Source: Cylindrodendrum hubeiense
Taxonomy: Eukaryota; Ascomycota; Sordariomycetes; Hypocreales; Nectriaceae
Length of the DNA stretch: 64,000 bases
Assembly: GCA_014621425.1 (NCBI GenBank)
Contig: JAANBB010000056.1
Location: 62,001 to 126,000 of the forward strand
Reading direction: 5' to 3'
The first letter of the stretch is position 1, and each line of letters begins with the position of its first letter. The translations under genes were made by a program, and so were the position numbers. Below, one piece after another: positions 4,270 to 62,229 of the stretch. The notes under the pieces were generated by a model. That model ran no database searches. It was not told the origin of the DNA and saw only the letters and a program-made list of their open reading frames with translations.

Positions 4270-4644
4270 GAATATGTCGGTTCAGTGTTTGGCACACGAT
4301 AACAATGATACGCTGGAAACAGGACTTGATAGTTGCCCACAGTTGTGATTCCACCGATTAGAAAAGTCTTGGGTAGCAGTGAGACCAACACCATAAGGTA
4401 TTGGAGTTGAACCAAGATTCACTCACCCTGTGTTACAGGCCAGGTGTAATCAACAGTCACCCGTTTCGCGTTGTGGGACGAGCTTTTAATCCTCTATTTG
4501 CGAATTCTGCCTCATCAGAATGTTTGATGATGAAGATCAAATGTTGATAGGTCAAGAGTATTTTTGCTGTTGGCTTCTATGAAAATGTCATAAAGAGATC
4601 TACGGTTGATATCTGTGACTCTGGATTGCTCAAAAGCGCCGCAA
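4270..4644. other. Convergent intergenic region
   Basis: Space between the 3' ends of the WD40-like gene (plus) and the peptidase gene (minus). Nothing gene-like is visible. It presumably contains both 3' untranslated regions and polyadenylation sites. Confidence 0.4.
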
Positions 4645-30360: not shown

Positions 30361-31721
30361 TGAGTTGGTATGAAATCCTTTCTTAAAGCTTAATTTAGGG
30401 TTATGTTTTACTATCTTAAGCTATCTTGCTAGAATGCTTTTTCCTAGCCTCCAGTTCACGCTCTGTTTATCTTAAATGAGTTATTAAATTGAGTGAAATG
30501 ATATCGTGTGAGGTGATAAGGGAATTATTTAGATAAAATAAACTTAAAATACTCAAGATTGAATCAGAGTTATAATTAATTAAAATTCACACTTAAGTGA
30601 GTTATTAATATCTTAATTAACTTTTGTAATGCGGTGTGCGTAGAGGCAGCTGTACTATATAATAGGTGTGTGGCACGGCATGATTGCGGTTTACTGCGAT
30701 TACTGCTTGATCTTTTGCCTCAGCGGTCACTGGCCTATTGCAACAGGCAATAGTGCCCCTAGCCCTGTTACAGCTTTATAATTTATCAATCTTGTTCTTT
30801 TTTTTTAAAAAATAAAGCTCAGGATTATAAGTCAAGATGGAAAATTAATTATTTTTTCTTTTTCCTTTTTTTCTTTCTCTTTTATTATCTCCTTTACTTT
30901 CTCACTTTTTTTTCGAATATATAGTAGATAATACCAAGATACTATTATACTAATAATATTATTTCTACTATCTAATTTATTATCCTAGCTAGATCTTTTC
31001 TAACTATTATTTGATCTCAATATATATTTATTTAGTATTATATATACTATATAATTATATAAAAAGATCTTTTATACTTAATTATCTTCATATATTAATA
31101 ATAATATATTAGCTATACTGTAAGGCTCCGGGCTGCATGCCCATACTTCAATAGACCCTCTGCTGGTTGAGGCAAAGGATCAAGCAATTCCAGTAAGCTG
31201 CGCTACTAGAATTGTGCCATATAACTTATATAAGGGGCCGAGGCGCGCAGAGCCTTCGCCAAATGGCGCGCATACTGTGTTGGGGGCAGCAGACAGCCTG
31301 GAGTTTCAATGACAGCAAGGGCCTAAGACTTTAGCCATTCACTAATTAAAGCTGTGCAAGCTGCTCGATCAATATGACATGCTTTTTCCTTCTCCCAATT
31401 AATATACTATCTTTGACTTAACTTCCATTCCCATTGACCAAGCTGTCACAGAAACTTTTATCGCTTCCTTTCCATCCTTCCAATGGATGCACTTAAAGGC
31501 ATATGATCAGATACTTCTGGCATCCCCATCCCCTGGTTGTGTTCGAAATCTTCCATCATCTTCTTTTCTTTCCTTCCCTCCAGCTACCCTATAAGTGAGT
31601 GTGGGCTGCACTAAAGGGTCATCTCTACTAGTTAAATACTAATCTCTTATATATACCTCTTGTAAAAAGAAAGTTATAAGATATAATCTTTCCTATTCTT
31701 ATTCATAATAATATTAAACTA
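30361..31721. other. Left edge of the AT-rich island
   Basis: Mostly AT-rich, TA-dinucleotide-rich DNA with no gene. Two less mutated stretches (about 30635-30780 and 31115-31350) are compositionally closer to normal DNA and look like fragments of repeats, but I could not identify them. Confidence 0.45.
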
Positions 31722-31771
31722 ACATACTTAATAAGTGAGTGGGCCAAACAAGTAAGTGGGCCAAAAATCCC
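31722..31771 (+). repeat. Left terminal inverted repeat of the outer pogo element
   Basis: Starts ACATACTTAATAAG, then two direct copies of an AGTGAGTGGGCCAAA-like motif. It pairs with 53416-53465 on the other strand. Confidence 0.88.
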
Positions 31772-32825
31772 TCAATCTCTCATCTTTTCAATTGATCAAT
31801 TAATTCTCAACTACCAAAGATATCTCGACTAAATAAAGAGGGAAATATCCTTCTTGCTCTTCAAGCCCTTCAAAATGACCTAAAATTAAGTATCCGGAGT
31901 GCCGCAGAAATCTATAATATACATCATAATACCTTATGTCGCCGGCAAAAAGGCATACCATCTTAACATAATACTATCCCCAAATCACGCAGGTTATCTG
32001 ATCTAGAGGAACAGACTATTATTCAATTCATTCTCGATCTAGATTCGCGAGGATTTCCCCCGTGATTGCGTGGTGTTAAAGAAATAGCTAACTGACTGCT
32101 TGCTGACCGCGACACGTTATTTGTCGGCAAGTATTAAGCTTCCAACTTCATTAAGTGATAACTAGAGCTTAAGATGTGTTTTTTTTTATAAATATAACTA
32201 TTAGAGGGCTAAATGCGAAGATCTAACTATTATTTGCAATTAGTTCTAGCTTATAGAGAATATAATTATAAAATATAATATTAATCTAATTAATATTTAT
32301 AATTTTAATAAGACTAATTTTATAATAAGTATAATTATAAGTGGAATAGTTATTATAGATATAGATAGATATAAAAACCTGAAATCAGTCTAGCCTGAAA
32401 ACTGAGAATAGGTTATAGTTATTTAGATAATTAATATAGAAGGCTAGGTGATCTAGCTATTTATTATAATTATAAGCTAATATTACCTAGCTAGTTAATA
32501 CCGGGAAAATAACTTCTTAGATAATTAAGCTATTATAATAACTTAAAATAGCTAGACTAATAATAAGATAGGTCTTAAATAACTTAAATATTTTAATTAG
32601 TATATAAAGGATTAATTAATTAGTTATTATTATCTTCTAATCCTTAATAAGTATAAAAGTTATCACTCTATTAATTTTAAGAAATATTATAAAGAGAATA
32701 ATATTATTATACTTTATATACTACCTTATTTATCTTATCTATTCTAGTTTCTTAATATTAAGTACTTTAAATCACTTAAAACTATATATAATTAAATAAT
32801 TAAATAATTAAATAATTAATTAAAT

Positions 32826-32839
32826 ACTCTATAACCTAT
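32826..32839 (+). repeat. 14-bp target duplication, left copy
   Basis: ACTCTATAACCTAT, identical to 52701-52714. The pogo homology stops here on the left side and resumes after the right copy. Confidence 0.75.
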
Positions 32840-33359
32840 TTATTTATTTAGCATACTCTAACCTACTTATTTAACTAAGCCTATAATACCTCTATACTTG
32901 TCTATATAAGGGGAAAAACCAGTTTCCCGGGGAAAAAACCTCACTCTACTCTCACTCATTATTTGCGCATCGTGCACTCATCACCTTTAACTCTCTCCTG
33001 TAAAAAAATTCCCTGATTAGCGACTATTAGCACTAGCGGGGAAAATTTTCACAGGCCCACCAAATCTGGCTGCTGAAGGTGCTGGTGCCCCTCAGGGCAC
33101 TAACAGCACAATAAAGGAAGGATTGAGAGAGTTAACTTCCTTTACACAGCAGCCACAGCCATAGCCCAAGGGCTCCGGCTATGATCGAAGCCTATTGCCC
33201 TGACCAGCTGGACAGCTATAATAGCAGCAGCAGCAATCACGGTACCAGTTTCAATCTAGGTGGGCTACGGCCTCGGCCACAGCCTCCCGGCTCCGACTAC
33301 AGATAGCCTTTCTGGCTTCGATCTTTACCCTGACTTCCTGTCTCGGTCCTTAGGCGCAT

Positions 33360-33520
33360 AAGACCACCGCGTCTTAGCACCTGCTTAGGCCTCCGGGTCT
33401 GAGCTGCCTTGGCCTCCGGGCCTCGGCACCTAGGTGTGTAAGATCACTGTATCTTAGTACCTGCTTGGGCCTCTGGGCCTGAGCTACCTTGGCCTCCGGG
33501 CCTAGGTTACTAGGACCTCC
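33360..33520 (+). repeat. Tandem repeat of about 80 bp, two copies
   Basis: Unit copies start near 33360 and 33440 (AAGACCACCGCGTCTTAGCA and AAGATCACTGTATCTTAGTA). Each contains two GGCCTCCGGG-type motifs. It lies in the GC-richer 3' region of the LINE. Differences between the copies are mainly transitions. Confidence 0.75.
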
Positions 33521-36448
33521 GGGTCTTAGATGTCTCGATCTACGGATCTTGGCTGTGAATCCAGGTCTATAAGAAGTCACAGAATCGGGCTACTCATAGG
33601 CATTAGGGTTCTGGTTAGATGGCCCTGATCAATGGATGCTGGCTGTAGTGGTTTTTCCCTCTATCTCTCGCGAGGTTTTCCTATCTATAGTTATTCCTAT
33701 TATACAGATCTCGATTTCTAGAGGTCTTGAAATGCTAGCAGGTAGGAATAGGAATACTAGAGAATTCCAAGCTGGTTAATAAATATAGGTTATTAATATC
33801 CGCCTGACAATCCGCTGACGGATATCGGGCTTGAAATAATAGGTTAAATAGGGCTACTTAATTGCTAGATGGAAGAGGAAGAAGGGTTACAGTCTAGGAC
33901 TGTAGGTCCGGGCTATAAGCCTTTAATACCTATAGCTCTCAGCCCCGGGGTACTGTATGTATTTCAGGTTCCTTCAGCTGTTAACACTAGCCTAGTATAT
34001 TATCTTGCCCGTAGGGGATTCTGTAAATATCTCTAGTTCTCTAATAGCTATCTTCATGACGGTAATAATATAATAACAATAACAACAACAACACTCATCG
34101 CCTTCTACTCTTATTATAGTGCTTAATGACGAGCTGATCTAAGGTGTTAGTGTTTTAGCCCTGGTCTCAGGGCCAGTTTCACTATAGTCAGGGTAATGCG
34201 GATTCACATCGCCCTCAATAAGCGGGACCGGATATCAGGGCTTCTAGCTCCGGGCCCACTCAGTTATGGTGGTATTATCATACCGGGTTTCAGTGAATCA
34301 CTGTAGTGTGTACTACCGCCTGTTTATTTACACCGCTATTATTATATTCAAGTTACTGTGTTTATGTGTCATAATTGCTTTAACTACCTTGTCTTTACGT
34401 GTTCGCGGTGATTGAACAGCTATCTGCGATATGTTACTCGCAGTATAAAGCTACTATCTCTTTTATCTCTCTCCCTCTCTTTCTTTCTTCCTTCTTTTAT
34501 TATTAATACCTATCTTTATAAGTACTTTCCTCTTTTATTTTATACTCGCTTCTATTATATATCACTAACTTCTCTAGTATTAGGTTTATCCTCTACCTCT
34601 AATATCACATTCCCCTTCTTCTTCCTGGCTCTAAGCCCTTTTACTACTTATAGTATATACCCTCCTCCTTTATATCTTCTCTTACTAACTCTGTCTAGAT
34701 ATCCGGTTCTATATCTCACTCACACTACACTTATAGTATTATCCTTAATATACCTAATCTGATTCCTTATCTCCATTATACCTAATATATTACTAGTACT
34801 AATAACACTCTAATTATATTCTATATTCCTAGAGGGTATTCTGGTTATTATACTATATATATTAATAGCTATAAATCATACCACTATATAAGTACTCTAT
34901 CTTCAATTTGTCTTTTATATTATTAACTTACTTAACCTATTCACAGTCTTATTATACTTACTTACTAGTTTTATATAAAGATCTAGACTTAGAATACCTC
35001 GGGTATTCACTTAGTATATTCACAATTTGCTTTCTTATTACCTTCTCTTCACTTTTATATACTAATTCTTACAGGCTCTTACCTGTTTTAATATTATGAT
35101 AATTAAATTTCTATATACTTCTTATAAGGAGATTATAACTAATTATCACTCTCTATCCTACTTAGCCTCTATGTCTAGGATAGAGAAGTTAGCTAAAACT
35201 AACTACTTATTTTAATATCTTTCCTATAATATAAGTATAATTCTCTCTGACTATAGCCTTCCCTAGCTTACTAGCTTAAATAATAATAATAATTCTAGTA
35301 ATTCTATTTCTAACTATATCTACTAGTCTATTAAGGGTAATAATAGTAATAATTCTAGTATTAAGATATATATAATACACTTATATACCACTAGTACCAC
35401 TAATATTAATAGTACTGAGTCTGGGATAGATATGGATAATAATAATAAGAATAAGGATAATAATAAGAGAGAGAGTAGTAAGGATAGTAATAGTAATAAT
35501 AATAATAGTATTAATAATAATAAGAATAATTAAGATAGTTTTGATAATATCTGAACTTAGATGTGGTATAGGTATTCTAATTATAATACTCTTTTAAGAG
35601 ATCTTTTTATTTAAGTTCTTTTTAGCTTAATAATACTCTCTACTTTATTATTATTATCTCTATATCTCTTCTATTAATCTGGTAATTTACTATTCCTTCT
35701 AGAATTATATTATAAATTTAAACTAGTATAGTTATATTATACTAAGATATTATCATACTAATAATATAGCTTTTCTTAATTAGCTTAGAGTATTAGCCAG
35801 GTCCCTCCTAGTCTCTATTAGATAATCCCTATTCCTATCCCTCTAATATTATATATATTATAAGATTATATAAAAGAGATCTTCTCTAGCTCTCCTATAT
35901 TTATATATTAGTATTAATATGTTAGTTATACCTTATATAAAGAGAAAGTTATAAAATGCTATCTTCCTAATCCTTATTTATATTAATATAGTGCTAATAT
36001 ATTTAGGTTATTCTTTGTGTATTTTTAAATATATCTAAGAATTAAATTTCTCTATATCTATTTATAGTAATAGTTAATAGGGGTAATTATATTATAATTT
36101 ATTTATTTCTTACTATTACTATCTCTTCTATTAGTTTTCTATTCTTATTATTAGGTTCTCTCTAAGTTATTCCTAATATTTATATTAAATAATGGATTTT
36201 TCTTATAATTTATATTAGGATCTATAATATTAGTAAAGTATATTTATAATGTGTTATTATATCTTAACTATTAGCCCTTAGATTTCTATTATATATATAT
36301 TTATAAGAGCCTTATCTAATTTTCTATTTATATATAGATCTAGAGGAGAGATATCTAATTTAATCTCTAGGGATCTAGTTAATATTATCTTATAAGCTCT
36401 AGTTATAAGTTATAGGCACTTTATCTATATCTTAACTATTATTCTTAC

Positions 36449-36880
36449 TATTATAGAACCTGGTAATAATAGGATATTAGTGTTATCCTCGATAGTATAC
36501 CTCACTATATTATAGCAGTCTAGACTAGCTAGAGGAAATACCCAGGGATATTTCCAAGGATTAGAAAAAGAAATTAGCTAGAAATCCTGAGATGCACTCT
36601 GGACAGTTCCTGGATTTCCGTGGGATTTCCTAGAATATGGGAAAAGTAATTCTAGGGAAATCCCTAGGATTTCCTTGGGAAAGTTAATCTTATTTTCTGA
36701 GCCTTTCCGAGAATTAATAGAGGATTTCCCTTAGATTTCCTAGAGATTTTCTGAGTATATAATACTCTGGGAAATCTCTAGAAATCTTAAAAGTTATCTT
36801 TCTTTCTATATTTAATTATATAATAATAAAGAAGATTTACTTTATTATTCCTNTANTAATTCTTAGATAGTNNNTTTTTN
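36449..36880 (+). repeat. Left LTR of the gypsy element
   Basis: Begins TATTATAGAACCTGG and aligns with 46590 onward over about 400 bp, including the conserved block GGATTTCCTTGGGAAAG. The right end is blurred by ambiguous bases, so the end position is approximate. Confidence 0.82.
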
Positions 36881-37316
36881 TTNTTCTTATNTATTATATG
36901 ATTAATNGTAAATTNTNTATTAATTTANTAGTAATTATATANTTCNCTNTAATTATATAANTCNNTATAATNNNTANATATTAGNACTTTNTNGAAAACT
37001 NNTCTTTANNTATTATTAATTNCNNGATATCTATTATTANTTTATTAAGGAGATNCTTATTAAANTAANTAATAAGAAATAGNNNAGGATAGAGGAAGAT
37101 ATTANTATTAAAACTTTNTNATAATAAANNGAAGAGTANNTAATCNNTNTAAGNGAGNTTTAGAATNTNTATTATTNTATTTAATTAATATAATTTATAA
37201 ACTNNTAGAATTATAATTATAATCTTATTATAAATAGTCTATAAANCTANNAATATAANCNTAAATANCTTAAATATAGAATATAATTATATANNTATAT
37301 TAANTATCTNNATTAT
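36852..37316. other. Stretch with scattered ambiguous bases (N)
   Basis: Single and short runs of N occur throughout, at the right end of the left LTR and the start of the gypsy interior. A few more are at 43725-43727. Probably low-confidence consensus from near-identical repeat copies. Confidence 0.95.
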
Positions 37317-38528
37317 CTTATTTATTATAAAGGTAAATTATATATTAATTAAATATCCCTTCTAGGTCTATTAATAATTATAACTAATATAAGATTAGCT
37401 AGTATATAGCTAGATCCTCTAGCTAATATGAGATTATAATATTAAGAATTATCTGATTCTCTTATAAGGAGTGATAATTATATAAGCTTATATCTTCTAT
37501 TATAAATACTAACTAATAGATCTCTGGTCTGACCTTTAGTTTTATTTCTAGATTTAGTAATCAGTATATTTCCAATAGTTATTATAACTAATAAGTAATT
37601 CTAATAGTTATTAGATAATATATAATCTACTCTAATAAGTATAGATAATACCTATATCCGCTTTTAGCTAGAAGAAGTAGGATAGTTCTAATCTCTAGGA
37701 ACTTATAATAAATAATTTAATAATATTATTATAAATAGTATTAAAACTATTTACTAGTAAGTGAAATATTTTAATAATACTCTAACCTAATATATAATTA
37801 AAAGACTAAAATATAAAATATTATTAATAGTAAATATCCTATAATTTCTCTTAGAATTCGCTCTTAATTAATATAATAATAATCTAGATAATATTTAGTA
37901 GAGTGCTTATATAAATATTATTATTAGACTTAGATATTAATATAATTTACTTAAAGAATAATTCTAGATATAGACTAATATTATCTTATAATCTTTTAAT
38001 AAATTGAGGTATATCCTTTAAGATATTTATAATTAGATAGACTTCTATATCTAGATATTTTAGATAAAATATTAATCTATTATAACTAGATATAATAATA
38101 TATAGTTAAAATTAATTATCTTTATTAAATTAAATAGTCTTTTATATAAAAAACTAATAGTTCTAATTCTATTATAAATACTTTCCAAATAGATTAAGTA
38201 ATATATATATATAATATTAAATCTTTATTATATTATTATTAAGAGAAATCTTAAAGACTAGATAAATAAATCTAGATAAAGATAAAATATATTTTCTTAT
38301 TTAAATTTAAATATTTCCTATTCTATCTAACTAGAAATAATAAGATTTATTAAGATCCTAGAATAATTATATAATATTCTAAATAAAAGTTATAATACTA
38401 GAAATTAATATACTCCCTAGAATACTTATAGATTTAGAATATTAATTCTATATCTATAGATTCTAATTATATTTAGATCTCTAGGTATTAATCCTTCTAA
38501 TTAAATCTTAATTAAAATATTATTAGAA

Positions 38529-39411
38529 GGCAATTACTAGAGGGACATGACTTTTTATTATGTGGGCATAATCTTACACAGACATAACTTTTTCTACAAT
38601 CCTTATTAGCTCAAAAAAAAAAATCTCCATATATATATATAATTAAAAATAATAAAGTTAACTTAACTAATAGCTATTATACCCGTATTAAGTCTATAAT
38701 TATAATATTCTACTATTATTATATCAAGATAGTATAATTTTAATCTCTTATATTTAAATTCTTAGTTTAACTATAAGTAATTAGAATTATATTATATTAT
38801 AATAATACTACCAGATCATCTTAATTATATCACGATAATGCTATTAGGTCATCTTAATATAATTTAATAATACTATCATAATATTACTAAGATAACTTAA
38901 TAGTACTATCATAATATTACTAAGATAATCTAATAATACTATCACGATATTAATATTATACTCAATATAATAACTCAAAGGGCATAATAGACTCAATTAA
39001 TATAATAGACTTAGTGGGTTAATATTATACTCTACGCGACAGTACTTCTAAGAGATCAATTAATCGCTAGGACTTGAGCTTTAACTTTATCTTCAAGATC
39101 TAGAATCTGGTTTAATATTAGTTTATTGGTAACAAGATATATTTAATCCGCTAGGGGGGGATAGGGAGGACTGATCGGGGGTAGGCTCTAAGAGTGGCTA
39201 TTAGGATATTTATAATAATTATTCCTTGAAGTAAGATTATTTTAATTATAATAGGTTAAATATTAAGAAATATAAAAAGGAAATATGGTAGAATTCTTAT
39301 ATACTAATAATTATTTTTAAATTAATAAGAATAGTAGAAAAGTTATATCTATATAAGATTATACCTATATAGTAAAAAGTCATATCCCTCTAGTAATTGC
39401 CTATTAGAATA
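38529..39411. mobile_element. Non-autonomous inverted-repeat element (hAT-like by target size), inside the gypsy element
   Basis: An 883-bp segment with terminal inverted repeats of about 75 bp: the left end starts GGCAATTACTAGAGGGACAT and the right end is its complement, ending GTAATTGCC. It is flanked on both sides by TATTAGAA (38521-38528 and 39412-39419), an 8-bp target duplication typical of hAT elements. The interior has no coding capacity. It contains short internal repeats (ACTATCATAATATTACTAAG twice near 38870-38930) and a G-rich stretch near 39153-39190. Confidence 0.75.
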
Positions 39412-42400
39412 ATCTAACTAAGTAATTTTAAGTATTCCTAGACTACCTCTAATATATTAATCCTTTTCTTTTTAATAAGGAAATATATATCCTAATAATA
39501 TCTTATAGGAAAACTATATTAATTATCTAGTTAAGAATATCTTAATAGATAATTAAGATAGAGTTTATTTCTTTAAGGAAATATTAGAATAAATATTAAT
39601 AGTTAATAAATAAGATTACCCTCTAATTAAAGATTATATTATAAAGATAATAAGTTTTATAAATAATAAAGCTTTAAATAAAAATAAAACAGATAATCTA
39701 ATAATATCTAGAATTAAGGAATTCTATAGGTTTATCTAAGAAACTATTATTATTACCTTATAGGTAGAGTATATTAACTTTATCCTAGATATTAATAATA
39801 GAAAACTAATATTTAATAATATCACTTTCCCTTTATAGAAAATATCTCTATTATTACCTATAATTAAATATATCTTAATAGAAACTATTCTAGGATTAAG
39901 ATTATTAATATAATATATATATTTCCAGATCTAAATATAAGTCAGATCTCATAAAAAGACTAGGTAGAAAGCTTATCTTAATTTTAGGATTATTAGATTA
40001 GTTATCTTATAGGAAATACTATCCTTCTTTCTAGATATCTCTATAAATAAAAGTCTCTAGGTAAAACTTAAAGGTATAGGAATAAGCTATATTAAAGAAT
40101 AAGTAATCTTTACTATTTATTTATCTAGATATAAAGATAGGAAACTAATATTAATAAAAGTTATTATTAGTATATAAATAATATCTAATCTAAATATTAA
40201 TCTCCTCTTAAAATAAGAATTTAATATATTTTATTAAATAGATATTCTAAACTTAATCTAGGAAATAATAATTAAGTTAGCTAATAGAATATATTTATTA
40301 ATAATAATATATTATAGGTCTAAATTAACTAGAATACCCTTATATATAATAGATTCTATAGTAATTTCCCCGAGGAATAGTAAGGTTATATAAATTTCTA
40401 GAGGAGAATAAGTTAAAGGATAGGATTATTTTCTTAATCTCTAATATAAAGGAATAATTAGTATCTTAGTATAGTAATTAGAGGTAATATATATAATAAA
40501 CTATTCCTAGAAACCTATAACCTTCTAGCTAAATTAATATATAGTTATTTTAAATCCTATTAATCCTAGTAAAAAAATCAAGGAAGTTAATTAGGTTTAG
40601 TTTATAACTATCTATAGAAAATATATACTTACTAGCTATAATATATTAGTTAAAGTAGTGGAAACTAATATCCTAGAAAAAGATAATCCCTAGAAAGATA
40701 ACCTATCTATTTAGATCTAGAATATAGATAATAATATTAAGTTAAGTATCTCCTAGCTAAAATATCTATTAGTATACACTCTCCTATAAGGAATTTATAT
40801 ATTTAAAGAAGAACTAGGATTTACTAATAAACTCTAGGAACTAGTAAAATCCTTTCCTAAATTCTAGATTAATATTAGAGTAATTAATATCAAGGAAAAA
40901 TATTAGATAAAGATATTATTAGTAGAGAATTAATATAAATAAAAACTTAGTTCTAGGATATATCCTCTTAGTCTTAAAAGTAAAGAATTCCTAGATAAAA
41001 TATTTAATAAACTATATAAATAAGATAGGATAAAATAGGCCTATAAACCTATTTTCTTTACTAGCTTAATATTTATTATATAGTAAATAGTTAATAGAAA
41101 AGAAAAAGATCATATTATAATTAATTTATAAACTCTTAACTATATTACTATCCTAGATACCTATCTAATATCCCTCTAATAGGATATTCTCTAAAAACTC
41201 TATAAAAAGAAATAGATAATAATTATAGATATCTAAAGCTTTTTCTATCAGTTTCTTATATATTAAACTTATTATAACCAGTTTATAATAATTAGTTATT
41301 AAGGGATAAAGTAATCTAAGATTACCTTAATAGATTTTAAGAATTTACTAGTCTATATCTAATAATTTATAGATTATATTCTAAAAGATTATTAGGAATA
41401 TATTTTTATATTTATTAATAATATTATTATTTACTTAGATATTAAGGAAGAATATTTAATATAACTTATTAAGATCTTTTAATTATTCTAGTAAAGAAAT
41501 ATTATCTTATTCCTAGAAAAGATATTCTTAGGATACCTTTTAGTAAAATTATTAGATTTCTAGATTAATAGGATTAGTCTTATTAATATAATTAGATAGG
41601 TTAAAATCTTGAAGAATATCTAGTTTCTAAGTATCCTATAATAACTTAAGAAATAGGTTAATATAATTAGATAGTTTTAATATTTAGTAGGAAGATTTAC
41701 TAGTTAAATTAAATTATTATAATAATATAAAATAATCTTACTAATAAAAGGGAAATAAAAAGATAAGATAATTATAGGATAAGCCTAAATAGTTTATACT
41801 AGTAAAACTATATTTAACTTTATTATAATAAAAAAAGAATACTTTAAAGATATCATAAATAGCCTAATAAAAGTTAATATCCTATATTATTTTAACTTTA
41901 ACTAATAACTATTCCTTTAATTAAATACCTTTAAAAAATAGGAAATAGGTAAAATAATATATTATTTAAACCTTAAATATTTATAGGATAATCTAAGTAA
42001 GATTCTATTTACTATAATCTAATCTATTATATATCTTAGTTAAATATTAAGGGATACTAAAAAATAATACTAGCTTATAGAACTTAAGATAATTTACTTA
42101 ATATAAATATATTAAAAGCTTTATATCTAATTATATTCTATAAAAAGAAAAAGGGTAATTATATTTACAGATTATTCTATAATATATATCCTAGTAAACT
42201 AAAAGTTAATATTCTCTTAGAATTCTAAGGATAATAAGAGACTTATTATAATATTATAATACTTAAGCTAATTTCTACTAGATCTTAAGTATATTCCTAG
42301 ACCTAATAATATTATATCTAATACTTTATTCTACTTATTTAAGGAAATCTTTAGAAATAAATAGGAACTTAAAGGGGAACTAGATATCTAATAAGAAGGG

Positions 42401-45400
42401 AAAGTAAATATTAAATAAATATACTATTTCTTAGAAATATTAATTAAGCTCATACTTAAAAGGGAAATAAGAGATAGTTATTAGATAAATAGGTAAATAA
42501 TCAGAATTATCTAATAATTAGGTAATAAAAATAAGATATCCGGATTATTATTTGTGTATATTAAGGAAATAATTTATCTAATTAAATTAAATAGGTAAAA
42601 AAAGCTCTATATCTTATAGAAAGTGATTAAATAGTTAATTTAGGAAATATATTCCTAAAAGAACTATCTAAGAAGAGATTAAATATAATATAACTTATAG
42701 TTAACCTTTATTATTAAGAAATTCTAACTATTAATTAATTAATATATAAATAACTATAATACTTATCTATATAATTAAATATCTTAAGATAAACTAAATA
42801 AATAGTTCTAATCTATATAGATATTAATAATCCTATTCTATATTATAATTATAGACTTTATTACTAGCCTTCTAGTAATTAAGACTAAGAACTCTCCTTA
42901 AAAGATTCTAGGAAAACTATATTTTAATATCTTATTTATAATAATTTATAAGTTTTATAAAATATATTTACTTATCTTAGAGAATAACTAATATATTATT
43001 AAAAATTAGGCCTAGACCCTATATATAGAACTTTTATATACTAATTAGGAAATTCTAAAGAATATTATTTCTGACTAAGATCTAAAGTTTATAAATAAAT
43101 TCTAAAGAGAATTATAATTAGTATTTAATATTAAGTTATTAATATTAACTACCTACTATTTACAAATAGATAGAATATTAGAAAGAAAAAATCAGACTAT
43201 AAAAATATCCTTATAATATTATATCGCGGATTTTCCTGACTAATTATAGATAGAAATAATTATCCCACTATAATTTAATCTTAATAACTTATATTCCTTG
43301 ACAATTAAGACTATTCTTAGTAAATTGATCTCTAAATAAAAGATAGATAATAGATAATATTATCTAGGTAATTAATAAAAACTACTAGATTATAATATTA
43401 TAAGAGAATAGGCCACTCTTATAATTATATTTAGATAAGTTATTATAAAGGAATAATATAATTAATAATATTAGCTAATAGAATTTAAGGTCAGAGATTA
43501 AATCTAACTGGAAATTAGTAAAGGATATACTATAGTTAATAACTAAATAGATAAACTTAAAGAAAAGTATACTAGTCTATATTAGATTATTAAAAAAATT
43601 GAAAATCTAATATATAAATTAGAAATAAAAGATAATCTTAATATCTATTTAATAATATTAGTTATATACTTTAAGTTAGTAAAAGCCCTAGAATAATAAA
43701 TTAGAACTAGTAAAAAAAAAAAAANTNACCATAATTAATAAAGAGATAAATATAAATATTAGGAAATTAATAAAGTTATTAAATTAAGAATAATAAAAAG
43801 AGATAAATAAAACTAATAAAAATATCTTATAATATAAAAAGAATATCTAAGTAATTATAATCTCTAATTAAAAAAAGAAACTATTAATATAAAGGAAATA
43901 ATTTAATCTTATCTAGACTAGGAAAAGGTAAAATTTATCCTAATAGATATTAAGACTAAGAAGAGAGTTATTAGAAGATTAATAATATTTCCTGAAAAAC
44001 CAGAGAAATTAATAATTATAAAAAGGAAATAAAAGTAATTATTAAAAATACTAGCTAAAAGTAAGTAAGAAATCCTAATTATCTTAGAAGATTAAACTAT
44101 AGGAAAACACACTAATAATTAAAATACTATAAACTTAACTTATCTAATAATTAGCCTATTAAAGAAGGATAGCTATTAGTACCTAAAAAATAAAAGTATT
44201 ATTACTAAAGAAAAATAATATACCTAAAGATCTAGGTAATTACTTATTTATTAATAAAAAGCTATTAGAATATACTATTAGAATTAAGGAAATAAGAATA
44301 GCTAATACTAGATAGTAATTAGCTATTTAGAAAACTATAAAATAATAAACTAATAAATATAAATACCCAGAAATTACCTATATTATAATTAACTTTTCTC
44401 TCTTTTTATATTATACTTATATAAACTTTCTCCTAATAACTTATATTATAAAATTATATTATCTTAAAACTATCTAACTAATTAGCTATCTTTTCTCTTT
44501 TTATAATATAATAGAATATATTTATTTCCTAATTATCCTATATAATTTAACCTATCCTTTTAGAGATATCTTATATTAGGCTCACTTCTCTAAATTACTA
44601 TCTTAGAATCCTAGATATATTAAATATAAAGAGTATAAATATACTTTTTAACTTTATAGAAATAATAACTTAATTTTAAAATCTAAGAAAATTAGATATT
44701 TCTTATAATAGACTAAGAATAATAAACCCTTATTTATTAATTTCTATTACTATATATAACTAGAAGGATATAATCCTCTCTTAGAATATATTAATTATAA
44801 TAAAGGATATTATTATTATTATTACTTAAAAGATATTTATAGTCTAATTGTAATTACCTATTATTAATATATAATAAAAAAACTTATTATAATTAGTAAT
44901 TTTAAAGATATTATATTAATATATACCCTATATAATAACTAAAAGTAATTTACCCAGAATTAAACTATTCCCTTAACTCTTTAAAATATATTAGGATATT
45001 ATATCTTAAATAAGACTAATCCTATTAAAACTATTATTAAATATACTAAGATTTTCTAAGTATTAATAGAAATCCTATAAAATATCCTTAATATTATCTT
45101 AGAAAATATAGAGATAGTCTAGAAATAAACTATTAATATTCTCAAAATACTTAGAGGAATTATAGATATAGTCTAATTCATAGAATATACCTATAAGAAA
45201 TATTCCCTTAAATAGCTAGCGGAAACTCTGATAATTAAATTAACTCTATAAGGAGAACCTATTCCTATCTTAATAATCTATAATTTTAGAATATAATTCA
45301 TACTAATCCTATTCTATATTCCTATTAGAATCCTAATTAAGAGTAATACCCTTATACTATAAACCCTTAAATATATAATAGAGACTAAACTTATTAATAT

Positions 45401-46580
45401 ATTCTAATAGAAATCTATAACTAAGATATATATTATTATCCTTATATAAAACTTATATAATCTTATTAAGTCTGGTATTACCTATCCCTTTATAATATAA
45501 TATCAGATAAGTCTAGATAAATAGGAGATTTTAATATAGACTTTTCACTTAGATAACTAATACCTTATACTTACTAATTATAATAATAGTTTTAACCTAT
45601 TCTATTTTTATAATCTATATTAGATAAAGATATATAAGGATATTTCCTTAATATAGATAGTTTAATATGTGAGTATTTCCCCGGGATATATTATTAACCT
45701 TAATATAGTGATAATCATCGCCTATATTAAATGTCTAGTATTCTTATAGGCTATGCAAGACATCCTAGAATAATCTCTCTTAACTAAACCTAATAGTCTG
45801 AGTAACTACCTTATAGATATTCTTGACTATTAGGCTAAGAATAGTTAGGATCTTAATACCTTACTAGATATTATTATTATATGTCCCTCTATTTAGTTAC
45901 TAATCTATAGTATGGGATATCCTCTTCTTATCTTAGATATAGTTAAAGGAATATTTGGGTCTCTGGTACTAGAGCTAGTTCTAGAAGGTTAATAACTCTC
46001 CTTGTAAGTGATCAAGATATTGGGAATAATCTAAGTGATTAGTCTATTATGGGAAAATATTAGTAATAACCTATTTAAGAATATTATTACTATTAATAAT
46101 ATGGAAATCTATAAGGATATTATTAAGTGATTCTACCCGCTGATATTTATATATTCTAAGATATATTTTATAATGACTATTAATATATTGAGCCTTTTTA
46201 TTTTATTTGAGATTATATGTTTACGGGAAATATAAAAACGGGTATTAGTTCTGGCTAATATTAGCCTATTTGCTTGATTATAGATATTAGGCTTTTTCTT
46301 TATTAAATATTATAATAGACTTTATCTAGTATAGTATAGATAGGATAATAAGACCTAAAGTAATAGATTTAATCTAGTGATAATTCTTTATTATATATAG
46401 ATAGATAAATTCCCTTTATCTATATATATTTCTATTAAAATAAGTATTCTAGCTCTATATTTCTTTATATATAGATATATAATTATAAATAATTATAATA
46501 ATTATTATTAGCTAGTAAGAAGAATAGTAGCTATCTGACTTTATAAAGTACTACTAAGAATAACAGTCTTTCTTTTATTT

Positions 46581-46589
46581 GCGGGGAAT
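46581..46589 (+). other. Polypurine tract before the right LTR
   Basis: GCGGGGAA followed by T, directly before the right LTR start. This is the usual primer site for plus-strand synthesis, and the position supports the plus orientation. Confidence 0.55.
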
Positions 46590-47020
46590 TATTATAAAAC
46601 CTGATAATAATAGGATATTAGTATTATCCTCGATAATATACCTCACTATATTATAATAATCTAGACTAGCTAAAGGAAATACCCAGGAATATTTCTAAGG
46701 ATTAGAAAAAGAAATTAGCCGAAAATCCTAAGATATACTCCGGATAGCTCCTAGATTTCCGCGGGATTTCCTGGAATATGGGAAAAATAATTCTAGGGAA
46801 ATCCCTAGGATTTCCTTGGGAAAGCTAATCCTATTTCCTGAGCCTTTCCGAGGATTAATAGAGGATTTCCCTTAGATTTCCCGGAGATTTCCTGAGTATA
46901 TAATACTCTAGGAAATCTCTGGAAATCTTAAAGGTTATCTTTCTTTCTATACTTAATTATATAATAATAGAGAAGGTTTATTTTGCTATTCTTCTAATAA
47001 TCCTGGATAGTTCTTTTTTT
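46590..47020 (+). repeat. Right LTR of the gypsy element
   Basis: Begins TATTATAAAACCTGA. Visible differences from the left LTR are nearly all transitions, as expected of RIP. The end is estimated from where the LINE sequence resumes. Confidence 0.82.
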
Positions 47021-47776
47021 CTTTATACTAGATTGGTAGATTCTATATTAAAGATTATATTATATTCTATTATTTATATCTTATAGATTTTATAGTTAGT
47101 TTTAATATATATATATATCTCTTATATTATTATTCTTATTATTAATAGATCTATATTATTAGTAAAACTAATTATTATTAAGCTCTCCTATTCCTCTAGT
47201 ACCCTATATAATCTATAAATAAAAATAATAAATAATAATAATAAGAATAATAATCTCTATAATATATCTAAGAATATCTCTATCTCTATTATTATATTAT
47301 TATTAAATACTAATAATATCTTTTTATCTATTAAAAATAATTAAATCTATTAGATTATCTAATCTAATAGACCTATCTTAATTAATATTTTAATTAGCTT
47401 TTAGTAATTAATTCTATTAAAGATTCCTATTATATTAAGGAAAAAGATTAATATAACCTTATATTATACTTATATTTCCCTTATTATTTTAATTATAATA
47501 TAAAGTACTATTTCTATTAATCTTTTAATTTTATTTCCTATCTATCTTAGGGGGAAAAGATTAATTTCTTTTATTATAATTATTAATTATTTTATAATTA
47601 TAATCTTAATTATTTTTCTTAGTATAGATAATAATAAGATTAATTATTATTCTTTTAATCTTATTCTCTTAACTTTAATCTTCTCTAATTTTAAGATAAT
47701 TATTACTTTTACTTTATAAAAGTATTATAAATAGTGTATAAGTTATAAGCTTATCTTTATTAATCTAAGTAATATA

Positions 47777-49636
47777 ACATACTTAATAAGCAAGTATCTT
47801 AGACAAATAAATATCTCAAAAATCCTAACCTCTAAGATTAAAATCACAATAAAAATACTATAAACTATTTAATTAATTTAAACTACTTATTATACTCTTC
47901 CCTAGATATCTTAATCACTATCTAATATATTCTTATATTATAACCAGGCTTACTACAGATACTATAATACTAAATACCTATTTATACTAACCTTCCTTAA
48001 CTATTATTTCTTAATAATTTAGCTACTATCTATATATTAATATCTATCCGATTAATTATTTATCTTCCTTTCTCTATTATTATTATCCCTCTTCTTTATA
48101 ATCTAGTTCTTTTTACTCTCTAATACTAGCTTAATATCTTATTTATCTCTTAAAGGTCTTTAATTTTAGCTCTTAATAAGATATTCTTATATATAATTAT
48201 TATTATATTCTTAATAAGAGACTTTAAGGTTCCTAGAATTAATTTTAGGGAGCTATTATAATATCTTCTAATTTATCTCTTAAAGTAATTAGACTAAGAT
48301 CTAGCTTTAAGTATAGTCTTTAAGATCTTTAAAACCCAAGGGATTAAGGGCTTAGGTCCCTCCTTAGTAGGTATTAGAGTCTATAACTATATATTAAGCT
48401 TTAAGATTACAGTTTTTAGGTTAAGAGAAATAAGCCCAGTTCCTTTAAAAGCCCCCCTAATATTTCTTTTTATTATAATAGCCTAATATATAATATAAAA
48501 GGCTAAAAAGAACTTAATCTTTAAAATATAGATTATAGAATATCTAATTAGATATTCTATTTCTTAACTATAAACTTTCTTAAGGAATCTAAAATACTTA
48601 ATATTAAGGGGTTAAAGTAAATAAGAGAAATAAACTAGTATATAAAGCCAAATAATTTTCTTTTCCTTATAATATCTCTTAAATTTAATAGACTAATAAC
48701 TTTTATAACTATTAAGGATTAGAAGATAATAATAACTATTTAATCACTTAACTATATACTAATTAAAATATTTTAACCACTTAAGATTAATCTTATTATT
48801 AATCTAATTATTTTAAGTTATTATAATAATCCAATCACCTAGGAAATTACTTTCTTAATATCAGTTAGTAAGATAATATTAACCTATACTAATAATAAAT
48901 AACTAGATTACCTAGCCTTCTATATTAATCACTTAAATAACTATAATCTATTCCTAGTTTTTAGACTATACTAATTTTAACTTTAAATATCTTTCTAAAC
49001 CTATAATAACTATTCCACTTATAATTATACCTATAAAAAAGCTAGTCTTATTAAAATTATAGATATTATCTAATTAGATACTATACTTTATAATTATATT
49101 TACTATAAACTAAAACTAATTATAAATAATAATTAGATTTTTATACTTAATTCTCTAATAATTATATTTATAAAAAGAATATATCTTAAACTCTAAGTAT
49201 TACTTAACAAAGTTTAAAGCCTAGCACACACTAACTAATAATATATTATAATTAGCAAGTAATTAATTAGCTATATCTTTAATACTATATAATCAGAGGG
49301 GAAATCCTCATAAATCTAGATCAAGAATAAAATAAATAAGAATCTATTCCTCTAAATTAGATAGTTTGTGTGATTTTATAATAATATCTTACTTAGAAAG
49401 AATACCCTTCTACTAGCGGCCTAGGGTCTTCTAAGAGACTGTATATATTATTATAGTATATTAGAGATTTAATATTAGGTTATTTTAAAGGGCCTGAAGA
49501 GTAAGAAGTATTCTAGCCTCATAATTACTCTATAATATACTAGGTAGTTAAGAATCAATTAATTAAATAGGGATGATATAGGTTGAGGGACTTTTGAGAT
49601 ACTTGCTTGTCTGAGATGCTCGCTTATTAAGTACGT
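47777..49636 (-). mobile_element. Second pogo/Fot1-type transposon, inverted, inserted in the LINE
   Basis: 1860 bp with 50-bp inverted repeats (47777-47826 and 49587-49636) and flanking TA. The minus strand encodes a RIP-mutated transposase of the same family as the outer pogo element: the N-terminal part runs from about 49560 downward (LSNLEE, DLDL.GFP), the DDE core is near 48960-48700 (IYNFNKTSF, GQYYL, LKWLKYFN), and the zinc-knuckle end is near 47930. Stops are numerous. The subterminal motif differs from that of the outer element, so it is a separate subfamily. Confidence 0.85.
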
Positions 49637-52600
49637 TAAGTGTTATTTAGTTCTCGCAAAGCTTAATAAACCCTATTAGAATATTATCTAAACCTATAAT
49701 TTTCCAGTTTTAGATATTTATTATAATCTCTTTTAGTTCTTCTAAGTTAATATTTTAGTTAATTTCTAGTATTATATTAATAAGTTATTTATATTCTTTC
49801 TTATTCTTAAAATTTACTTCTATAATTAGGAAAAAATAAGTTATAAGGAATACTATCTTCTCTGTAAATTCTAAAATTATTATTCTATTTAATTTCTCTA
49901 AGTTTAGTATTTTTATGATTATCTTATTATTATTAATATATTATAGTACTTATTTCTCTATTAATTAGAGGGCCTTTATTTAGATTCTCTTAAGATATTT
50001 ATATTATTTTAATCTCCTAGTCTTATTAATTATATCTATAAGTTTCTTCTAAGCTTTTTATAACTTATCTTAATTATTATCTATTAACTATCTTTAGGTC
50101 TCCCTTTTTATAATCTTAATATATTTCTTTATCTTATTATTTTTAGTTAATTACTATTTATATTTATACCCTATATAGGGATAATATATTAGGATTAATA
50201 CTTTTATAATCTAGCTAAATTCTATAATTAATTTCTTAGCTTTAATATTTAATTCCTTAGATATTTTCATATTAATTACTATTTTATAAAGGGCTTTATT
50301 AGATTTACATTAGGCCCTATCTATATCTATCCTTTTCTAGTTAAGTCTTATCTCTATTCTCTCTGCCTATATATTAACCTTACTATATATATAGATTATT
50401 ATTATTTAGGGGATATAATCTAAGTTTTTAAGATTAATAGAACTATTAAAAGCTATTTATAATTAGCTATTAGTCTAGATAAAATTAATTATATTATATT
50501 AGATATTATTAGATAAATATATTAATTTCTCTCTTAAGATAATTAGTTTTAAGTATATTCTAGTTATAATTTTAATAAGATATAAACTATATAATAAATA
50601 ATAATTATAAATATCCTAAATTAGATAGTATTAATTAAAATCCCCTATAAGGATAATATTATTATTATATATTATTATATATATTTTAATTTTATAGATC
50701 TAGTATAGGTTATTATCCCTGTTTTCCCTTAGGGGATAATATATTATATAGATTATAATACCCTCTTTTAGGATTATTACTCTAGTTTAGTATTTATTAT
50801 TATATAGATTAGTTATTTTATATTATTTATATATATAGAATATAATATCTTTATTATAATAGTTTATTATATACTATCCTTAATTTAAATAAGATAGTTT
50901 TCTTATTATTTAGTTTATATATATCTCCTAAATCCTTATAATATTAAAGATCTTTAATATTACTTAGTATTAGGTAGGTAAGAGTGGCTTTCTTCTATAT
51001 ATTCTATATTATTAGTTTTATTTCTATTAGTTTAATTATTAGTTAATTTCTATACTTATATTATTATTATTATTATTATTTTCAAGTCCTATTATATTTG
51101 GGGTAGTTTTAAGATTAGTTATAAATAGTATAGCTAAAGGTAGTATACTCTTAGAATATATCCTTATAAATTGGAGAGTTAATTAATCTCTTAATTATAG
51201 GTTTTTATATATATTTGTTAATCCTAGGGGTCTATTCTTCTTTTTTCTTATAATTAGGAAAGCTAGTTAGCTTTGTGATCCTTGGTCAAATAGTATTATT
51301 ATTCTTAATTTATTCTTGTTCTAAGGGAGATTCCTCTTATTATTCGCAAAGTGATAGGGTCTTTTAGAGTATGCTATTCTAGCTCTTTCCCAGTACTTTT
51401 AGCTTATCAGGTAAGTCCTGTTCTATACTAGGTATTTCCCCTAGTATAGGAGATATCCCGGTTCTATTATATAGTTATTCTTACCTATTATATGTGCTAT
51501 ATATTTACATTACCTGTATCTTATTTTTAAGTTATAATATTTTATAATATATCTATATTAGTAGTATCTGAAGTACTATTATAGGTGGAGTTTTTCCTTA
51601 TAGGGTTTATTATTAAAGATCTACATTTTAAGAATAAGGCCTTCCTTATATATTCTATTTGTATTTTTAAGGGTTAGTATAATAATAATTATTAGTGTTA
51701 TTACTATAGTTTCCTATTACTTTCTTATTACCTTTATTCCTATTATCTTAATTATATTCTGTTATTAGAGTGTTTCTATTAGTCTTTAATATCCTATTAT
51801 ATTAATTATTTATTATAAGATATTCTTAATTATAATATTATAGATTCAGGTTATAATAATTATTTTCTTATTAAATATATTCTAGATCTATTCTTATTCT
51901 ACCTAAATCCTATTAGTTTTCTCTTAAAAGGTTAGGATTATATCTTCACTTTATAATTAGTGTGTAATTATTATTATTACCTTTATCTTTAGTACTCTAT
52001 TTATTATCTTAATTATATTATTTATATTATAATTTATTAGGTCTTTAGTGAAGTTAATTCCTTAGATTATAATTTCCCTATATACTCTTATTAGTACTCA
52101 CTTCAGGGATAGTTCTATTATAGTTTAATAGTCTTATCCTAGTCCTTCTATAATCACATTTACCCAGGTTTTATTTCTAGTCTATAATCTTTTAATTATT
52201 TAGGTAATAATTTCTTTAATAATAATTTTAATATTCATATTATTTATATTATTCTGAGTAAGTAAGGATATATTATTATTATATTATATATACTCCCGGT
52301 TCTCTAGTAATAGTATAAAAATCCCCTAAACTTACTTGAGAATAGGGCCTTAGATTAGCTCCACTATCTTAATATATACTTATTTAGTTAGGTTTTTATC
52401 TAATTATATTATATTTTAGATATCTTTAATATTTAGTGTCTTAGTTATCTTAACATAGGCACGCGGTATATATACCACTACTCCCGCATTCAGATAGTAT
52501 ATATTCTATTTAAGGCCCTTTCTATCCCTATCTATATCTATTGGGAATGCTACCTCCGCGCCTATGATCTGTGTGTACTGTGATATTGTTAATCCTTTCT

Positions 52601-52700
52601 GGGCGCTGTAATAGGTGTGTCTGAGAATTGAGTGGGTATTTTACCTGCTATTTAGGTGAGATATTCCAGAAACTCTCATAGAGCTTCTAATATATGTATA

Positions 52701-52714
52701 ACTCTATAACCTAT
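52701..52714 (+). repeat. 14-bp target duplication, right copy
   Basis: ACTCTATAACCTAT, identical to the copy at 32826-32839. The following bases (ATTATAAAGACTGAG) continue the pogo transposase as judged against the inner pogo copy. Confidence 0.75.
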
Positions 52715-53415
52715 ATTATAAAGACTGAGTTCTTTCTAGTTTTCTATATTACCTATATAGTTACTATAATAAGGAATAATATTAAAAGAGGTTTTTAAGG
52801 GTCTAGACTTATTCCCTTAAACCTAGAAAATATTATATTAAAGCTTAATATATAACTATAGATTCTAACACTAATTATAGAGGAGGTCAGCCTCCCTGAC
52901 CCTTAGATCTCAAAGACCCTAAAGATAGTATTTAAGGCCAGTTCACAGTCTAAATACCTTAAAAGATAAATAAGAAGGTATTAGAATAACTCTCTAATAT
53001 TTATCTTTAAGGTATTTAAGTTATTTTCTAAGAGAATAAAGATAATAATATATTAAATAATATTATTAAAATCTGAAAACCAGATCCTTTAACAAATAAA
53101 TAAAACTCTTAGTAAATAGCACAGAGCAAAAAGAACCCACCTATAGAATAAAGGGAAGATAACTATAGAGGAAGGAAGAGAAGTAATTAATCAAATAGAT
53201 ATCAATACACAGGTACAGGCTAAATCATCGAAAAGTGGTGGTCAAGGAGGGTTAGCACGATCGAAGGAAAGGTACTATAGAACTTGTAGAAAGACTGGCC
53301 ATAATACAAGAACTTATCAGGCTATAATTAAAATCTCTGGAGAGGAGTATAGCAATTAGTTTTAATTGATTAAATAGTTTGTTGTGTTTTTATTAAAGTT
53401 TTAATTTTAAAGGTT

Positions 53416-53465
53416 GGGATTTTTGGCCCACTCACTTGTTTGGCCCACTCACTTATCAAGTACGT
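53416..53465 (-). repeat. Right terminal inverted repeat of the outer pogo element
   Basis: Read on the minus strand it starts ACGTACTTGATAAG and carries two AGTGAGTGGGCC copies. Differences from the left repeat are mostly C-to-T or G-to-A transitions. Confidence 0.88.
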
Positions 53466-53689
53466 TAATAAACTCAGATAGGTCTTTAAATTATTTTAGA
53501 CACATTTTAGGATTCGATCTCTCAATGTCTATTTACCGAGGAGGTCTAAATTAATAGGTTATATTAACTTTCTAGATTAGATTTCTCTTAATTTACATCT
53601 TTAGGCATATAATTATTAACCTGAATTACTTATAATTATTCCAACTATTATACTATTTAATAATTTATATTCAGAGGTGACTGATGTAT
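53466..53689. other. Right edge of the AT-rich island
   Basis: Short AT-rich spacer after the outer pogo element; no feature recognised. Confidence 0.4.
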
Positions 53690-54777: not shown

Positions 54778-54950
54778 GCTAGATCGAATCACGGCTTCGT
54801 ATTCTTGCCCATAATTGGACATTACGTAGCCGATTTAGTTAAGGTTAATCTAGAGTTGGAGTAGCGAAATATCCAGGACCCCCATTCATGGCCTGTGCGC
54901 GATCTCCCAGAGTTGACTGGTTGGGAGGGGAAAATATTCTCGCTGTCGAT
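54778..54950 (+). pseudogene. Fragment of the 3' end of a sarcosine oxidase-like FAD oxidase gene
   Basis: In one frame it reads SNHGFVFLPIIGHYVADL, a TAG stop, then WPVRDLPELTGWEGK, which mirrors the C-terminus of the intact oxidase at 21076-21270 (SNHGFKFLPIIGQYVADM and WPVRDLSELTGWRGR). A short internal segment is missing and the stop sits where the intact gene has TGG. Clearly a paralogous or duplicated relic. Confidence 0.85.
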
Positions 54951-60392: not shown

Positions 60393-62229
60393 CATAAGAT
60401 TAAAATATTCCAGTTAGTTACGAGTGTTTGATGTTGTCAAGATGCCCATGTTTACCTCAGCTTTCGAGTTTTTGAGACAGTTAGTCAAGAAATTTTACTT
60501 AGAGACATCTTTAACTGCTCGGGCGAGCAATTTAGAACATTCAGTGAATATTAAGGGAATATTCCCCCTCAGCAAACAAGCCCATGATAACTCTATCGTA
60601 ATTTAGTGACTCGGGCTTTGTCTCAGATCTCCTCAGGGCCAATAGGAGATTCTTTTCTGGTTCTCGTCGTAAATGGATTTCTCTTCTTCAAATGTCACAT
60701 GTGGCCAAGTCCTTGACTGATCCTCGGGATACAGCTCCAAAATGTTGTGTAGCCAATTAGGTTAGGTATGGTATCCTATTCTTTTATACTGGACTGTTTC
60801 CCCTTAGAGGACTTGATGTTAGCCATGTCGACAGCGATTGACCTCATCAAGGCTAAATGGCCCTCGATGCGCGAACGGCAAGGATTGCTTTCCCCCTCGT
60901 TCCGTAGCTATCATCTAACATAACACTCAAAGCATGACCATGGATTCATTATATCAGACACTAAACTGAAGCGCCAAAATGAATTATTCCTCACACGTGC
61001 CTGATCACCGCACACACCTTGATGATGCGCGCGGCTTAGCAGCAGCGCCTTTGTTGCTAGTGAACCCCGTGCCGCACAAACCCCTGTTAGGCAATCGGCG
61101 GTCTGGACCGATTTTGACATTCCTAAGACAATCTAGTTTGAAGGTACTCCTGTTAGTGTCTAAAATACCCTACTAGTTCTGTGCGTGTCTCTCTTTTGCA
61201 TTTGGAGTATATTTTCTTGAAATTATGAAGTTGTTGCATCTGGCCCCCATTACGAGGAGTGAGCGAGCACAAAAGCACTGACCCAATTGTGCGATCTAAT
61301 CTCTTCATACAGCCGGGAGGAAATGCGGGGTATGACGTAGCTTTCAGATCAGACAAGGACTGAGCGCGTCTCATACATTTTCCCAGGATGCCCATGTGAT
61401 AACTAGTCCATGCTTGAAGTTTCAAAGCCCAATCTGGGCTACGCTGGCTACTCTCTCCATCAAACCACGACACTGATTCCGGGGAAAACATGCGATCTTG
61501 CACCCTGTCCGACAGGCTAGCAATAAGCAAATGCTTGAATTTTCAAGGCGGAAATTAGGCTGCGCCGCAGGCATGCTACGTAGTACTCTCTCCATCGAAC
61601 CACGACCCTGATTCTGGGGAAAACGTGCGTTCCTGTGCCGTGCCCCACAGGCTAGCAATAAGTCGGTCACGCTTGCACAAAAATATACAGCACGTTGTCC
61701 CTACTAGTGCGGGGAACGGGGAATTCATGAATAAGGCACAGCAAGTGTCCAGCCACTAGACTAGAGCCGCGCAAGGTGATCAGGCGTGGTGAAAATTTGT
61801 TCTCGAATTGGCTAAGGAGTTCTGGGGTAGAGCCAGAACCCCTCTCAGGGGAGGAGTATCACCAATATCCAATCACTCTTGGCGGCGTGACTAACGACTA
61901 TGGACAGATCCACCATCCTATGAGCTTCAATTACGTACAGCTTATCCAATAGAAGATTCGCAAATTCTAGCTTGGAATTCGTCAAGCGTTGAGAAGTCAA
62001 ATTGGCTTTCTCATTACGTGAGAAATCGGAAAAGCCGGGCTTTCTCAACGAAGGACTGGCCGAGGGAGTCGAAACACGCAAACTATGACCCTACCTTTGC
62101 AACAAGTAGGCAGGATCCCTCTCCGACTCAGCATCGCGCGCCTATGAGGGGTCATGGCAAATCTAGATGCAGAATCCTCAACGTGACCTTGCGGGTATCC
62201 ATTCGGTGCCACACGTTCTCGTTTTTCTG
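60393..62229. other. Intergenic region
   Basis: About 1.8 kb without a supported gene. It contains a direct duplication at 61411-61668. Confidence 0.4.
61411..61668 (+). repeat. Direct duplication of about 120-137 bp
   Basis: Copies at 61411-61531 and 61532-61668. Both start TGCTTGAA-TTTCAA, contain ACTCTCTCCATC and GGGGAAAAC, and end CAGGCTAGCAATAAG. They differ by substitutions and a short insertion in the second copy. Confidence 0.88.

Follow-up and report, generated by a model that had tools for sequence, protein, structure and literature searches.

Successive transposon insertions probably built a nested, AT-mutated island in a Cylindrodendrum hubeiense contig

The window analyzed here is a 64,000-bp stretch of the Cylindrodendrum hubeiense genome (bases 62001–126000 of contig C512; the genome has 47.5 Mb in 798 contigs). 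At least seven mobile elements are nested in it at one locus. The nest of transposons inserted one inside another is real: uninterrupted copies elsewhere in the same genome cross the junctions. We attribute the whole stack, with a probability of about 0.9, to transposons that inserted one after another in an AT-mutated island of this ascomycete's chromosome. The uninterrupted copies, the nesting and most target duplications were observed directly; the duplications are 14 bp for a long interspersed nuclear element (LINE) copy, LINE-B, TA for two pogo elements and 8 bp for an inverted-repeat element. The data supported an order of arrival that starts with an older LINE copy (LINE-A), followed by the outer pogo and LINE-B. 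A gypsy-like long terminal repeat (LTR) element, the inner pogo and a 1.1-kb retroposon came next, and a Mutator-like element in the gypsy-like element came last. Position alone gives no mutual order for the three inserts in LINE-B. Counting LINE-A beneath the outer pogo, the nesting is most likely five levels deep. A sequence-only reading made earlier had proposed four layers, in the order pogo, LINE, gypsy plus inner pogo, and inverted-repeat element. The uninterrupted copies bore out this nesting and order, but the probable base layer and the third LINE-B insert, the retroposon, had been overlooked.

The outer pogo lies on the plus strand in two parts, 31722–32839 and 52715–53465, between TA duplications at 31720–31721 and 53466–53467. 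Its ends (31720–31771 and 53416–53467) are inverted repeats of 52 bp, 94% complementary; the earlier claim of an element with TA on both sides and inverted ends stood, with 50 bp given for the repeats. The right part was recognized by self-comparison and by comparison with other pogo copies. In the self-comparison, 31720–32839 and 52703–53425 paired with the inverted inner pogo. The left part contains a DDE_1 match (32457–32795) of 22.8 bits against a cut-off of 22, with E = 0.0014 and 10 stops inside. The score was 71.6 bits in a sister copy on C334 and, by hmmscan, 13.3 bits in the copy L002, which is below the cut-off. The DDE_1 transposase domain of the outer copy and the TA duplications of both window copies place these elements among the pogo (Tc1/mariner) transposons.

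LINE-B, on the minus strand, separates the two parts of the outer pogo. The 14-bp sequence ACTCTATAACCTAT stands at 32826–32839 and 52701–52714 and nowhere else on the plus strand of the window. By our own estimate (about 1/3 agreement per base in 80% AT DNA), the chance of a 14-bp match exactly at the junction is well below 1e-5. Uninterrupted pogo copies settle the insertion independently of this estimate. Of 48 matches, seven other copies were retrieved as loci (L002–L008) and tested, and in every one the left part runs straight into the right part without an insert; L006 has about 10 poorly aligned bases at this point. The proposed check, alignment of the rejoined outer pogo with intact family members and the inner copy, was run: the rejoined flanks align across the junction, through ACTCTATAACCTAT or variants of it, with all seven copies and the inner pogo. 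The insertion of the LINE with its 14-bp duplication was thus upheld. The statement that the sequence occurs once in the inner pogo failed, since ACTCTATAACCTAT is not there; the only match with at most two mismatches is ATTCTATAATCTAT, and both differences are C to T. Another pogo, at L055 5661–7770 (contig C2), is interrupted by a short LINE, truncated at its 5' end, whose 15-bp duplication has one A/G difference, indicating that a LINE entered a pogo at least twice.

LINE-B is present in four parts. The 3' end with a (TAAA)n tail is at 32840–32987, the second part at 34105–36448 (collinear with 3457–5796 of the LINE copy L052), the third at 47051–47774 and the 5' part at 49639–52700. Two other copies, L052 and L058, run from the third part directly into the 5' part, of which 51016–52700 has few matches in the genome. 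The 3' end and its tail are shared by all seven aligned copies, short 3' copies also exist, and target duplications were identified in three of the seven (the window, L055 and L057). Variable target duplications, a shared 3' end with an A-rich tail and 5' truncation are the marks of a LINE.

Three elements interrupt LINE-B. The inner pogo (minus strand, 47777–49636; 47775–49638 with its TAs) has TA on both sides, and at this site L052 and L058 read AAGTAATATAAGTATTATTT without the element. It is missing from all three LINE copies tested, L052, L058 and L059, the last of which is diverged there, and the inverted inner pogo of the sequence-only reading was confirmed. The retroposon (plus strand, 32988–34091; 1,104 bp with an (AAC)n tail) lies between the last 13 bases of the LINE-B 3' part (32975–32987) and a right duplication at 34092–34104 that is identical to them at 12 of 13 positions. 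Five other LINE copies (C488, C651, C2, C12 and C90) go from about 32987 straight to 34092 without it. The gypsy-like element (plus strand, 36449–47050) has its 5' LTR from 36449 and its 3' LTR at 46590–47050. The two LTRs share 89% identity over 431 aligned columns. Across the ten rows that were read, LTRs start with TATT and end with TA or CA; the start may have been TG before repeat-induced point mutation (RIP). A perfect 5-bp duplication was found in five of eight other gypsy copies (C265, C468, C244, C237 and C276; not C68, C681 and C568).

The gypsy-like element is itself cut by an 873-bp element (38529–39401) between two copies of the 8-bp duplication TATTAGAA (38521–38528 and 39402–39409). 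All three gypsy copies examined (L045, L046 and L047) have the 8-bp site once, without the element. The earlier call of an inverted-repeat element with an 8-bp duplication stood except for its length, given as 883 bp. The two ends of the element occur elsewhere in the genome about 3.3 kb apart, and a larger relative of about 3.77 kb (L066) scores 60.7 bits for the MULE domain (cut-off 27.6; E = 2e-16). The genome has 17 MULE matches, six of them between such ends (C68, C514, C707, C173, C5 and C502). Because the ends recur around a MULE domain, the 873-bp element is an internally deleted derivative of the ~3.77-kb Mutator-like transposon. It has long inverted ends and a duplication within the 8–11 bp of Mutator-like elements, and its autonomous relative has the MULE transposase. 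Other members have 8-bp duplications, TAGGAAAT on both sides of L067 and, by eye, TAATTTAT at L066. Among Mutator-like elements, 9 bp is the commoner length.

The flanks of the outer pogo suggest what lies beneath it. Three pieces on the minus strand align in order to LINE-B, each scoring above all of 300 shuffles. The left pieces are 30920–31118, which aligns to LINE-B 35727–35931 and also appeared in the self-comparison, and 31635–31719, which aligns (31635–31714) to 35910–35989. The right piece, 53468–53675, aligns to 35997–36220; it is the weakest, and its placement on the LINE is ambiguous. The end of the left alignment and the start of the right alignment are at most 8 bases apart on LINE-B, the pattern that a TA insertion would leave. 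Judged from these alignments, the element that received the outer pogo was most likely an older LINE copy, now decayed, here called LINE-A. LINE sequence stands on both sides of the outer pogo, with direct continuation and a deletion between them both possible. The left pieces are separated by an unclassified insert of about 0.5 kb (31119–31634), which consists of two dispersed repeat pieces, split near 31272 and found at several other loci.

Several results weigh against parts of this picture. The right flank scored 77.5 against LINE-B, close to the shuffle maximum of 72.5, and higher against L052 and L058 (87.5 and 81.5; no shuffle of 300 reached either), about 600 bases further along the LINE. 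Its best place in L052, 5964–6076, is elsewhere than its place on LINE-B. Against L053, which covers little there, the match was not significant (28 of 300 shuffles reached the score). A Pfam search of LINE frames from the window, L052, L053 and L058 found no domain, neither reverse transcriptase nor endonuclease nor any other; from the window it covered parts of LINE-B outside 34105–34499 and 51503–52700. Because no reverse transcriptase was found in these mutated copies, the label "LINE" rests on the insertion marks. A genome search with RVT_1 (PF00078) and Integrase_H2C2 (PF17921) gave no match on C512. The label "gypsy" rests on the LTRs, the 5-bp duplications in five of eight copies and a sub-threshold SH3_Tf2-1 match (18 bits against a cut-off of 30). 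This was the only Pfam match in the window element, searched from 38521 onward, and pieces of the gypsy copy L045 had none. The junction of the gypsy-like element is also not clean. CTTAC on its left faces AAGAT on its right, with no matching 5-bp duplication, and 338 bp (against L052) or 337 bp (against L058) of LINE are missing before the third part of LINE-B. The claim that removing each layer rejoins the layer below therefore applied to the removal of LINE-B, the inner pogo and the inverted-repeat element, but not to that of the gypsy-like element; that this element cuts the LINE was borne out by LINE-B sequence in order on both sides.

We prefer to explain this scar by recombination of two gypsy insertions. 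Two copies about 337 bp apart may have recombined into one, and complete LTR ends with unmatched flanks are the expected trace of such an event. A single insertion followed by deletion of about 337 bp of LINE together with one duplication copy agrees with the LINE sequence missing in both comparisons and with short shared bases seen by eye at the junctions (TATT left, TTA right). Such bases are common in AT-rich DNA, and both LTR ends are complete, so that the deletion would have had to stop exactly at an LTR end; we regard it as rather doubtful. An assembly fault is the other alternative: among the window's 52 N runs, 50 are crowded into 36853–37311, where the 5' LTR ends and the interior begins, and most of them are single bases. 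A contig that is partly chimeric, with repeat copies from different loci joined at least at the gypsy-like element, would account for this weak spot and the unmatched flanks in a genome of so many contigs. It is very unlikely. LINE-B continues in order across the gypsy-like element with only about 337 bp missing. Its outermost ends have the 14-bp duplication in common, and the two pogo parts that hold them complement each other as halves of a single element, so that two compensating errors would be needed. Recombination between two nearby gypsy copies thus remains our preferred reading of the scar.

The 1.1-kb retroposon looks like a parasite or derivative of a second LINE, judged by their shared 3' end; many short interspersed nuclear elements (SINEs) share the 3' end of a LINE. 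From about 33810 through the (AAC)n tail, it matches sequence at C334, C11 and C201, and in the first part only at C287. Twelve loci match its 3' part alone, and at five of these (C334, C11, C201, C287 and C190) the same strand has an RVT_1 match 1.7–2.0 kb upstream. The 3' match through the tail at three loci would also suit truncated or rearranged copies of the second LINE, with no separate family, an explanation we hold for less than an even chance. Against it, copies with one and the same 5' start occur at six loci, each with its own duplications, and at further loci, which indicates that the retroposon multiplies as a unit. Duplications of about 12–16 bp were found at all six loci read on both sides (the window, L010, L011, L012, L016 and L018); L014 was read on the 5' side only, and L013, L017 and L019 were not counted. 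In the window, the retroposon is flanked on both sides by CACTCATC[A/G]CCTT. Neither a tRNA nor an Rfam family (5S or other) was found near threshold in its head, so the polymerase III promoter from tRNA, 5S or 7SL that defines a SINE was not seen. As a retroposon that probably borrows the 3' end of the second LINE, it would have been copied by the enzyme of that LINE.

The retroposon has 48% GC, and the copies on C446 and C777 are 94% identical. The window copy is also mutated, lightly: it departs from the column majority at 56 positions, of which 47 are C-to-T or G-to-A changes, and 28 of these 47 have a CpA context. This low load hints that the retroposon is young, although load also depends on copy number and length. 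The copy L010 (contig C446) has 39 C-to-T against 2 G-to-A differences from the majority, as if one strand had been hit in a single round. An 80-bp tandem duplication (33342–33514, 80–81% identical) lies inside the retroposon and in other copies as well.

Most of the stretch from about 30.9 to 53.7 kb has a GC content of 12–35%, compared with 49% in the flanks. Every layer has a TpA/ApT of 1.05–1.37, and the flanking values are 0.65 and 0.72. With its C-to-T excess in CpA context and raised TpA/ApT, the locus is heavily AT-mutated and has the usual look of RIP-mutated repeats. Since RIP-type mutation dominates here, the LTR divergence (11%) was rejected as a measure of age. The ends of the outer pogo and LINE-B (31722–32190, 34105–34500 and 52401–52700) have about 35–42% GC and the bodies about 20%; several other pogo copies are similar. 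Outside the island, two short stretches, one to either side of it (21075–21269 and 54782–54941), were 87% and 78% alike, local tandem repeats lie in the GC-normal flanks (61449–61662 and 19096–19315), and the host genes of the window encode Zn2Cys6 factors and an MFS (major facilitator superfamily) transporter. These genes and their protein neighbours indicate Hypocreales; the closest match of an MFS protein was from Ilyonectria (81%), followed by Tolypocladium and Hirsutella (66%).

The two copies of a target duplication may form a paired sample, in which shared changes predate the insertion and private changes follow it, so that bouts of RIP or deamination could be ordered against insertions without a clock. 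We put this forward tentatively, from one site and without generalizing it. In LINE orientation, the retroposon site reads CGACGAGCG in L054, L055 and L057 and TGACGAGCG in L056, and the window copies read CGATGAGTG (right) and TGATGAGTG (left). Two C-to-T changes are common to both window copies and absent from four of six other LINE copies (L054–L057); one further C-to-T change is private to the left copy. These changes suggest that C-to-T mutation hit LINE-B both before and after the retroposon arrived. The shared changes also occur elsewhere, since the heavily mutated L052 and L053 have C-to-T at these positions too. All three changes are in CpG context, which makes deamination of methyl-C as good a cause as RIP. 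Applied across the nest, paired duplications would, if the idea is right, order mutation bouts against insertions.

In the proposed history, the outer pogo would have entered LINE-A, and LINE-B, of the same family as LINE-A, would then have entered the outer pogo. The gypsy-like element, the inner pogo and the retroposon would have entered LINE-B next, and the non-autonomous Mutator-like element the gypsy-like element last. Each class would have used its usual mode: cut and paste into TA for the pogos, integrase for gypsy, target-primed reverse transcription for the LINEs and the retroposon, and insertion with an 8-bp duplication for the Mutator-like element. RIP-type mutation would have acted between and after the insertions. 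One Hypocreales locus records the order in which DNA transposons, LINEs, an LTR element and a retroposon invaded it, and C-to-T mutation probably continued between these insertions. Under RIP, where LTR divergence is no clock, nesting and paired duplications can yield at least an order. The locus also points to a 1.1-kb retroposon family that seemingly borrows the 3' end of a LINE.

Fungal Fot/pogo transposons have TA duplications, a length of about 1.86 kb, inverted ends and a DDE_1 domain. The window pogos share all of these, and the difference seen is their heavy mutation. Like Mutator-like elements with the MULE transposase (PF10551), the 873-bp element has long inverted ends and a larger relative with the domain above cut-off; it differs in being internally deleted and non-coding, with an 8-bp duplication. 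AfuSINE of Aspergillus fumigatus (PMC5063351) is likewise a short non-coding retroposon with target duplications, whereas the window retroposon is 1.1 kb long with no tRNA, 5S or other Rfam head found. A paper on crapaud of Podospora deals with RIP at the starts of LTRs and with recombination among copies. Nested, RIP-mutated clusters are well known in fungi, and the present stack is a further, mixed-class example. For Mycosphaerella graminicola, PMC4522978 describes 78 nested clusters of 7.5–63 kb with verified duplications, low GC and RIP-like mutation, and its authors also cite reports from L. maculans and Epichloe. The window resembles those clusters in its elements within elements, verified duplications, low GC and RIP-like mutation. 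It differs in the fungus, in having a LINE and a pogo at its base instead of an LTR element, and in mixing several classes: DNA elements and LINEs together with an LTR element and a retroposon.

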